In this document: positions 39,147 through 41,638 of the stretch, in pieces
How positions within the stretch are numbered: the first letter of the stretch is position 1
Layout of the letters: each line of letters starts with the position of its first letter
DNA from: Sulfurimonas sp.
Lineage (GTDB): Bacteria > Campylobacterota > Campylobacteria > Campylobacterales > Sulfurimonadaceae
Assembly (NCBI RefSeq): GCF_026196735.1
Contig: NZ_JAPHUF010000002.1
Location: 1 to 64,000 of the forward strand
Length of the DNA stretch: 64,000 nt
Direction of reading: 5' to 3'
Notes under the pieces: generated by a model
Databases searched by the model: none
Told to the model about the DNA's origin: nothing
What the model saw: only the letters and a program-made list of their open reading frames with translations
Position numbers and translations under genes: made by a program

Positions 39147-40475
39147 CTATAAGATATATCTAGATAAATCATCATTTTCGACAACTACATCAAGTTTTTC
39201 GTGTACTAACTCAGAAGTGATTATGAACTCTTCATCTTTGTACTCATCTGCACTAAAACTCACTTCTTCTAGGACTTTCTCGATTACTGTGTGAAGTCTT
39301 CTAGCCCCAATATCTTCTGTTAATTCATTTGTGCGATGAGCTAGCTTTGCAATTGCATGAATAGCCGCGTCTTCAAATACCAACTTTACACCCTCTACAC
39401 TCAAAAGTGCTTCATACTGATTTAGTAAGGAGTTTTTAGTTTGAGTAAGTATCTTATATAGAGTGTCTTCCGTCAAAGATTCAAGTTCAACTCTAAGTGG
39501 AAACCTTCCTTGAAGTTCCGGAATTAAATCACTTGGTTTACTAACATGAAATGCACCAGCAGCTATAAATAAAATATGATCAGTGTTAATTACACCATAT
39601 TTGGTTGTGACACTGCTACCTTCAACTATAGGGAGTAAATCTCTTTGAACACCTTCTTTAGATGGGTCATTTCTGCCTTGAGACTTTTCGCTAACAGCTA
39701 TTTTATCAATCTCGTCAAGAAAAATAATTCCGCCATCTTCAGCACGCTTAAGGGCTTCGGCATTTATGTTTGTTGAGTCAAGAAGTTTCGCACTTGCTTC
39801 AGTTTTTAGGATAGATTTGGCATCTTTGACAGTAACTTCTTGTTTATTATCCTCTTTATTCATTTGAGAGAACACTTTAGAGAATGACTCTTGTACTTTT
39901 GCCATTTCCGGAGGTAAATTTGTATCATTAAACTCTACATGTATCTTTTGGATTTCAAGTTCTATGATTTTGTCATCCATCTCTCCGGCTATAACTCTCT
40001 TTTCCATAGCTTCTAACAGCCTTTGATAATCATCTTGTTTAGACTCACTAGCACCAGAGGGTAGAGGAGGGAGAAGTTTTTCAACTATTTTGTTAATAAC
40101 ATAGTTTTCAATTTTTTCTCTGTTTTTCTCTTCTTTTTCAGCTTTGACTATAGCGATTGATGAAACAACCAAATCTCTAACCATTGATTCAACATCACGC
40201 CCTACAAATCCTACTTCTGTATATTTGCTTGCTTCTACCTTGATGAAAGGTACTTTCATCATTTTCGCTAGTCGTCTTGAAATCTCAGTTTTACCAACAC
40301 CGGTGGAGCCGATCATCAAGATGTTTTTTGGCATTATTTCATCTTGAAGTTCCTCTGAGAGTTGCATTCTTCTGTATCTGGTTCTTAGTGCTAAAGCTAT
40401 AGTTTTTTTAGCATCATTTTGGGATATTACATACTTATCTAAGTACTCAACTATCTCTTTGGGTGTTAAATTCAT
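39147..40475 (-). CDS. hslU: HslVU protease ATPase subunit HslU
   Basis: MNLTPKEIVEYLDKYVISQNDAKK; NILMIGSTGVGKTEISRRLAKMM. Supplied ORF runs to 40514; ATG at 40475 chosen. Confidence 0.96.
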   Translation of the reverse strand: MNLTPKEIVEYLDKYVISQNDAKKTIALALRTRYRRMQLSEELQDEIMPKNILMIGSTGVGKTEISRRLAKMMKVPFIKVEASKYTEVGFVGRDVESMVRDLVVSSIAIVKAEKEEKNREKIENYVINKIVEKLLPPLPSGASESKQDDYQRLLEAMEKRVIAGEMDDKIIELEIQKIHVEFNDTNLPPEMAKVQESFSKVFSQMNKEDNKQEVTVKDAKSILKTEASAKLLDSTNINAEALKRAEDGGIIFLDEIDKIAVSEKSQGRNDPSKEGVQRDLLPIVEGSSVTTKYGVINTDHILFIAAGAFHVSKPSDLIPELQGRFPLRVELESLTEDTLYKILTQTKNSLLNQYEALLSVEGVKLVFEDAAIHAIAKLAHRTNELTEDIGARRLHTVIEKVLEEVSFSADEYKDEEFIITSELVHEKLDVVVENDDLSRYIL

Positions 40476-40476
40476 A

Positions 40477-40560
40477 TTATCTGTCTTCTTGAATCTGAAC
40501 AAGTCCAGCTTCAATTCCTCTCACTAAAGCTACGCCTTTTGGCGAGAAAATATATTTCAT
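40477..40560 (-). other. 27-codon ORF / double-hairpin repeat copy A ([27 protein letters not shown])
   Basis: 87% identical (73/84 nt) to 41105-41188; ATGA overlap with hslV stop, 1 nt before hslU ATG. Confidence 0.7.
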
Positions 40561-41102
40561 TTATTATCTCCGTCTAATACTAGAGTTTTGATGTTGTGAT
40601 TAGTGTATATGCATAAATCAGCAGCTATACTTAAGCTCTCTCGCACCAGTTCCTCTTCATCTAGATTTGCATGCTTTTTAAGTGCGCGAGCAGCAGATAT
40701 GGCATGGTTTCCGCCACTGCCGATAGATGCAATCTCTCCATCTTCAGGCTCTACTACATCACCGTTTCCTGTAAGTATGAAAATATGCTCATTGTTTAAA
40801 ACAATCATCATGGCTTCTAAACGGCGAAGAACTTTGTCTTTTCTCCAAGCTTTAGAAAACTCAATAACCGACTTTAAAATATCGCCTTTTTTATCTTCTA
40901 AAAACTCTTCAAACATGTCAAAAAGGTTAAAAGCATCAGCAGTACTTCCTGCAAAACCAGCTAAGATTTTGCCTTTATGAAGTGTTCGGATTTTTGTAGC
41001 ATTAGCTTTTAAAACCGAATCTCCAAAAGTAACTTGCCCATCTCCACCAATTACAGCTCTATTTTTGCCTTTGTAGGCAAGTATTGTAGTAGCATCAAAC
41101 AT
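40557..41102 (-). CDS. hslV: HslVU protease peptidase subunit HslV
   Basis: [24 protein letters not shown]. Confidence 0.96.
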
Positions 41103-41104
41103 AA

Positions 41105-41188
41105 TTATCTGTCTCCTTGAGTCGGAAGTAATTCCGCTTCAATTCCTCTCACTGAAGCTACGCCTATTGGCGAGAATATATATTTCAT
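41105..41188 (-). other. 27-codon ORF / double-hairpin repeat copy B ([27 protein letters not shown])
   Basis: Starts 3 nt after rplI stop, ends 2 nt before hslV ATG; near-identical to copy A. Confidence 0.7.
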
Positions 41189-41191
41189 ATA

Positions 41192-41638
41192 CTATTCGCC
41201 CTGTACATCTACATGTAGTACAGCATGAAGACCATGTCCTAATTTAAAATCTAAATCATGCTCGCCAATTGTTTTAATAAGCGATTTTTCATTAATATGT
41301 TTTTTATCAATTTCAATATCGTGTTGCTCTTTTAGTGCAGTAGCAATTTCATCTTTTGTAACTGAACCAAAAAGGTGACCGTTTTGACCAAGTTTTTTAG
41401 TGATAATTATCTCAGCTTTATCAAGTTTCACGGCAAGTTCTTTTAAAGATGCTATTTCAGCCGCTAATTCTGCAGCTGCTATTTTTTCATTCTCTTTGTG
41501 TTGTTCTAAAACCTCACTCGTTGCAAGTTTAGCAAACCCTTTTCCTATAAGAAAATTTTTCCCATAACCATCTTTAACTTCTTTTACTTCACCTTTTTTA
41601 CCAAGGCTTTTTACATCTTTAATTAATAATACTTTCAA
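41192..41638 (-). CDS. rplI: 50S ribosomal protein L9
   Basis: MKVLLIKDVKSLGKKGEVKEVKDGYGKNFLI. Confidence 0.97.
   Translation of the reverse strand: MKVLLIKDVKSLGKKGEVKEVKDGYGKNFLIGKGFAKLATSEVLEQHKENEKIAAAELAAEIASLKELAVKLDKAEIIITKKLGQNGHLFGSVTKDEIATALKEQHDIEIDKKHINEKSLIKTIGEHDLDFKLGHGLHAVLHVDVQGE

Follow-up and report, generated by a model that had tools for sequence, protein, structure and literature searches.

Small dispersed repeats are usually regarded as junk DNA, tolerated in the spaces between genes. Among those described from epsilonproteobacteria are the GTAG repeats, with both GTAG and CGTC repeats recorded from Sulfurovum sp. NBC37-1 (Di Nocera et al., PMC3733652); the repeats counted there may include part of the family described below. 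For Sulfurimonas gotlandica, RepRanger tabulates palindrome counts and nothing further (PMC12306157). A search of the literature on intergenic repeats of Sulfurimonas and the Campylobacterota found nothing specific, and no Rfam family matches either the window (the whole 64-kb stretch of DNA analysed here) or the repeat copies considered below.

The minus strand of the window carries, in order, rplI, a repeat, hslV, a second repeat and hslU (Table 1). The two repeats, which an initial annotation had singled out as units on either side of hslV, form a direct repeat of 92 nt each (40476-40567 and 41104-41195, minus strand) with 86% identity. As that annotation had it, each contains CGCC-NNNN-GGCG, the loop reading AAAA in the hslU copy and AATA in the hslV copy, and 10 of the 27 codons of the short frame running through them differ, seven nonsynonymously; the dN/dS check proposed for this frame gives a Nei-Gojobori pN/pS of 0.80 for the window pair. 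The frame of the hslU copy begins with an ATG that overlaps the hslV TGA (ATGA) and stops with a TAA one base before the hslU ATG. The hslU frame itself is open into the element as far as an in-frame TTG at 40514 (window 40475-40514), so that the start of hslU may be wrongly assigned, within the repeat, by automatic annotation. Single-sequence folding of the two window copies is only modestly better than that of shuffled sequences (z of -1.8 and -2.0), and the strength of the structural case lies in the family rather than in these two copies.

Table 1. Features of the rplI-hslV-hslU region, in window coordinates
Feature	Position	Strand	Remark
rplI (ribosomal protein bL9), upstream of the hslV copy	41192..41638	-	Identity read from sequence
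hslV copy of the repeat element, between rplI and hslV	41105..41190	-	About 90 bp net insertion relative to empty sites
27-codon upstream frame, hslV copy, from 3 nt past the stop of rplI to 2 nt short of the hslV ATG	41105..41188	-	
P2 (first hairpin), hslV copy: CTCGCC-AATA-GGCG-T-AG	41158..41174	-	Covariation across the family
Near-invariant linker, hslV copy: CTTCAGTGAGAGGAA	41143..41157	-	
P3 (second hairpin), hslV copy: TTGA..CGGAA-TTAC-TTCCG..TCAA	41117..41142	-	Pairing kept, sequence varies among copies
GGAGA, likely Shine-Dalgarno sequence of hslV, supplied by the element	41112..41116	-	Based on position of tail GGAGA across the family
hslV, flanked by the two copies	40557..41102	-	
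hslU copy of the repeat element, between hslV and hslU	40477..40560	-	
P2 (first hairpin), hslU copy: CTCGCC-AAAA-GGCG-T-AG	40530..40546	-	Covariation across the family
P3 (second hairpin), hslU copy: TTGAAxCTGGAC-TT-GTTCAGxTTCAA	40489..40514	-	
GAAGA, hslU ribosome-binding region in element tail	40484..40488	-	
hslU, downstream of the second copy	39147..40475	-	Likely start ATG 40475

The window pair belongs to a family of elements of approximately 70-90 bp that occurs in sulfur-oxidising Campylobacterota and is represented in Sulfurimonas, Sulfurovum and Sulfurospirillum. A covariance model of 44 positions (R1), applied with a genome cut-off of E < 0.005, gives 22 copies for this Sulfurimonas-like genome; a blastn search of the genome likewise recovers copies beyond the window pair. 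The 20 further copies, together with the many elsewhere, refute a local tandem duplication confined to the hsl operon and unconnected with any larger family, an explanation that we regard as virtually untenable even though, within the genome, each window copy is most similar to the other. Going by names read from the sequences, the genes downstream of the genome copies include ftsY, a radical-SAM gene, hslV, hslU, the gene for a NiFe hydrogenase large subunit, purH, lpxC, miaB, mnmG, flgB, ubiD, purM, aat, cdsA, rpmJ, thrB, clpB and queH, among others; these are diverse housekeeping genes, and no functional theme is seen downstream of the 22 copies.

The distribution of the family is patchy. 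Thirty relatives carry 0 to 11 copies per genome, and in a sample of the phylum hits occur in 50 of 397 genomes and 15 of 68 genera, at 0-22 copies per genome, several of these genomes having head-to-tail arrays with a period of 48-82 bp. In G018, four copies are 88-94% identical and the 200 bp on each side of them are unrelated. Among the matches listed in an exact 16-mer scan of all prokaryotes, the multi-copy organisms are Campylobacterota only. The 16-mer matches outside the phylum are isolated and, with the exception of one chance hit close to a tRNA-Sec gene (L226), absent from the structure-filtered matches listed. Viral carriage was rejected, the eight viral hits to the 16-mers lacking the structure, and a 12-nt pattern, GAAGCNNNGGNN, proved too loose to be meaningful.

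The structured core is visible when copies are compared. Sites for the first hairpin, P2, were picked by the 3' linker alone, the hairpin playing no part in their selection, and pairs were counted on an alignment with a loop gap. The arms found at these sites include CGCC/GGCG, TGCC/GGCA, CACC/GGTG, CATC/GATG, TGCT/AGCA, TGAT/ATCA, CAAA/TTTG, CACT/AGTG, CGGC/GCCG and CGAC/GTCG, with a variant CTGAGCC/GGCGAAG, and the pair exchanges are CG/TA, GC/AT and CG/TA/AT/GC. Over 110 aligned rows, 97.7% of P2 cells are paired, compared with 90.5% (maximum 92.3%) when the 3' letters are shuffled; the maintenance of CGCC-NNNN-GGCG by compensated changes is well supported. P2 is followed by a near-invariant linker, CTTYAGTGA, and then by one of two layouts, GAGGAATT-P3-AAGGAGA in type I and CTGAATA-P3-TATGAGAT in type II. 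The sequence of P3 varies from copy to copy, with the arms pairing at 10.3 of 12 positions in type I (7.6 when arms are swapped between copies) and at 10.8 of 12 in type II (8.5 when swapped).

These compensated changes across the family bear out the proposal that the units are a dispersed repeat in which RNA (or single-strand DNA) structure is kept. The hairpins that had been drawn as GCTTYA...TGAAGC fare less well: GCTTTA/TGAAGC and GCTTCA/TGAAGC are both present, and form part of the minimum-energy fold of both window sequences, but they are not the second hairpin of the family, and because TGAAG occurs in only 10 of 158 copies this pairing competes with the family structure and does not constitute covariation evidence. 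The compensation claimed within GCTTYA, U-G in one copy and C-G in the other, dissolves on wider comparison, the same T/C difference also varying in copies that have no pairing partner. Two further helices were considered and rejected. A third, upstream hairpin (P0), which by eye had seemed widespread, is not a general feature, a chimera test giving p=0.69 for type I and only partial agreement for type II (p=0.003), and a closing helix TCTC:GAGA (P1) is unsupported, its columns hardly varying beyond what P2 needs. Some copies have additions of their own: in L036, L085, L061 and L033 an additional hairpin, TTCTGTGC...GCACAGAA or a different one, is inserted in the linker after CTTT, and a GTGCCC..GGGTAT module in the P3 loop is common to L022 and L076.

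The family is placed almost exclusively in sense at gene starts. Of 136 placed copies, a count that covers copies related by descent and not independent events, 129 are sense and directly before the start of an ORF, usually with 55-70 nt between the core and the start codon. Most of the remaining copies are either sense to short ORFs as well (L119, L157, L166, L178) or spurious motif matches. L081 is plainly antisense, and the copy in L136 is antisense to dnaG, yet sense to a farther ORF. For 59 of 79 type I copies, 4-9 nt separate the tail GGAGA from the start codon. An RPE-like nature had been suggested, but no interruption of a protein gene by a copy was seen, and the overlapping ORF calls that were inspected are leader frames or lie in non-coding RNA. 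In an uncultured Sulfurovum (RB_MAG_00015, L185:1260-1670) a copy lies in sense within helix P12 of a class A RNase P RNA; the ribozyme nevertheless reaches 261 bits across the full model. This location speaks for a mobile, self-contained RNA fold over a gene-specific regulator.

It is against this background that a cis-regulatory role has to be weighed, in which a riboswitch, protein-binding leader or thermosensor would hide or expose the GGAGA ribosome-binding site of a set of genes. The near-exclusive sense placement at 4-9 nt before start codons is in its favour, as are the invariant, unpaired linker, the recurrence of the element at hslV, lpxC and purH in several species, and a substitution on the linker side that goes together with one in the ribosome-binding tail, where in type I copies GAGA[G/T]GAA and AAG[G/A]AGA vary jointly as G..G or U..A (67, 3, 0 and 9; p=1e-9, partly confounded by lineage). 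A regulator of this kind is nevertheless unlikely, given downstream genes without a functional theme, orthologous sites that are empty in most relatives, the existence of tandem arrays, the copy inside RNase P RNA and the lack of any Rfam family.

The empty sites are best seen around hslV. The rplI-hslV junction without the element reads GAATAATG in most relatives, the genes overlapping as TAATG, and among 30 congeners it is mostly GGCGAATAATGTTTGAT, with the stop overlapping or adjoining the start. The element occupies the junction here and in a minority of the other genomes, with a net gain of approximately 90 bp. The hslV-hslU junction is occupied only in this genome and in G153, among those seen. 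On an hslV tree, itself weakly supported, the element-bearing genomes are scattered, with at least three changes by well-supported branches and most simply six, and some of these may be precise losses rather than gains. G018 was scored as empty on this tree owing to a partial hslV duplication: the element there (L056/L264) precedes a second hslV-like 5' end approximately 300 nt upstream of the full hslV, which is either a partial duplication or an assembly artefact. The hslV junction is occupied repeatedly in several lineages, more than blind insertion would give, and this leaves room for a selected regulatory role.

Target duplication is clear in two cases, L136 (14 bp) and L070 (15 bp), and is not consistent over copies, while the flanks of type I copies share words of at least 8 nt in 24% of cases against 10% by chance. 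In Sulfurovum D100SM.bin.10 (L136:4300-4530) the element adjoins the dnaG start and a 14-bp direct repeat, GCATTATCTATCAT, stands on both sides, resembling a target duplication. No terminal inverted repeats are present at the aligned ends, where the match is a 4-nt TCTC/GAGA only.

The comparison with REP sequences made in the initial annotation raises the question of a Y1 (RAYT) transposase acting on a REP- or BIME-type palindrome in single-stranded DNA. Such a mechanism would suit repeats that are short and hairpin-forming and that have GTAG next to the first hairpin in roughly one-third of copies, and it would also suit the single Y1_Tnp gene of this genome. However, GTAG is found in only 42 of 135 copies (GAAG in 54 and AAAG in 30), and copy number does not follow PF01797, Y1_Tnp being missing from genomes with 9, 6, 11 and 3 copies and present in some that are copy-free. 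No copy lies near Y1_Tnp at the loci checked, the arrays are head-to-tail only, with inverted pairs absent, and the copies are sense at gene starts and not downstream of genes, all of which makes transposition by Y1 very improbable. Reverse transcriptase was also rejected as a mobiliser, showing no correlation with copy number. On either side of the only Y1_Tnp gene of the genome, L021:1340-2270 (G000:C20) has similar AGGGGTTGAATCTYCACTTTT stretches, which are unrelated to the repeat.

A short reading frame passes through the element, read as GGC GWA GCT TYA GTG in both window copies. Before the element, 38 ATGs are preceded by a Shine-Dalgarno sequence, 28 of them in the open frame, which runs towards the next gene, and 10 in the other two frames. 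The stop of the open frame adjoins the downstream start more often where there is an upstream ATG (12 of 23 against 12 of 53, p=0.016), and in a second comparison of stops beside the downstream start, with and without an upstream ATG, the figures are 12 of 13 and 10 of 21 (p=0.011); these p-values are optimistic because related copies are not independent. Within the family pN/pS is 0.70-0.78. Judging from these sequences, it appears to be the frame, more than the peptide, that matters, and the natural inference is that translation may be re-coupled across the insert.

The frame could alternatively be a conserved micropeptide gene, with the 27-codon product functional and the hairpins a by-product. 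Such a gene would be consistent with the in-frame bias of upstream ATGs and with the recurring peptide MK(Y/F)xFSPxGVAxVRGI...GDK, but it sits poorly with pN/pS at the level just given, with an in-frame ATG in only 47 of 143 copies and stops in many, and with wholesale replacement of the second half of the peptide while pairing is retained; we consider it highly unlikely. The initial annotation had put structure above peptide, and in this the compensated changes and the weakly constrained 27-codon peptide agree with it, although the frame is not irrelevant, as upstream ATGs favour the one that runs through. Its interpretation as a whole is partly supported.

Collectively, these observations place the window pair in a dispersed, RNA-structured family that is located at translation starts and brings its own ribosome-binding site; it is probable that the family is mobile and that its short frame re-couples translation. 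Each copy would be transcribed in sense as two hairpins with the near-invariant linker between them and a ribosome-binding site at the end. The element would spread as mobile DNA, and its copies would persist by inserting at a start region and giving the downstream gene a new ribosome-binding site. Where insertion split overlapping, translationally coupled genes, the short open frame would allow ribosomes to pass through the hairpins and start anew on the gene that follows; at hslV/hslU the path would lead from the hslV TGA, with its overlapping ATG, to the TAA and then the hslU ATG. It is possible, though we put this forward only tentatively, that the self-spreading element targets start regions in sense, carrying a portable leader of hairpins, short frame and ribosome-binding site repeatedly before the same genes in separate lineages, and that it is moved by an unrecognised mechanism, perhaps acting on transcribed or RNA-paired DNA.

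The confinement to start regions, the sense orientation, the compensated structured core and the inbuilt ribosome-binding site mean that the element can rewire the translation of operon genes, and as a portable leader it may change translation of the hslVU protease pair among the genes affected. Since congeneric species range from no copies to more than 20 and provide clean empty sites, both the consequences of acquiring the leader for translational coupling and the way in which the element spreads are directly testable.

REP and BIME sequences are likewise short, dispersed, transcribed intergenic hairpin repeats with a patchy occurrence among related genomes (PMC3733652). They are, however, found downstream of coding regions, whereas the present family precedes start codons, is 70-90 bp long with two hairpins and an invariant linker, does not conserve GTAG, is arrayed head-to-tail and has no link to Y1 transposase. 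ERIC, Correia/NEMIS and other MITE-like elements are also dispersed, non-autonomous and located in transcribed intergenic regions, can affect operon mRNAs, and include copies with internal inserts (PMC10969869); the present family differs in having neither terminal inverted repeats nor a consistent target duplication, in being near-exclusively sense and in bringing its own ribosome-binding site. The BOX, RUP and SPRITE elements of pneumococcus are similarly modular and hairpin-forming, and can make short reading frames and lengthen 5' untranslated regions, but they are over-represented between convergent genes (PMC3049150), whereas the family described here is essentially confined to gene starts, in sense. 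Rickettsia palindromic elements (RPE) share with it one open frame and tolerance within a host RNA, here RNase P RNA, but are inserted in frame inside protein genes (PMC10969869), which the present family is not seen to do. It is best read as a new family, kin in kind to the REP, ERIC, BOX and RPE repeats and fitting the definition of none of them.
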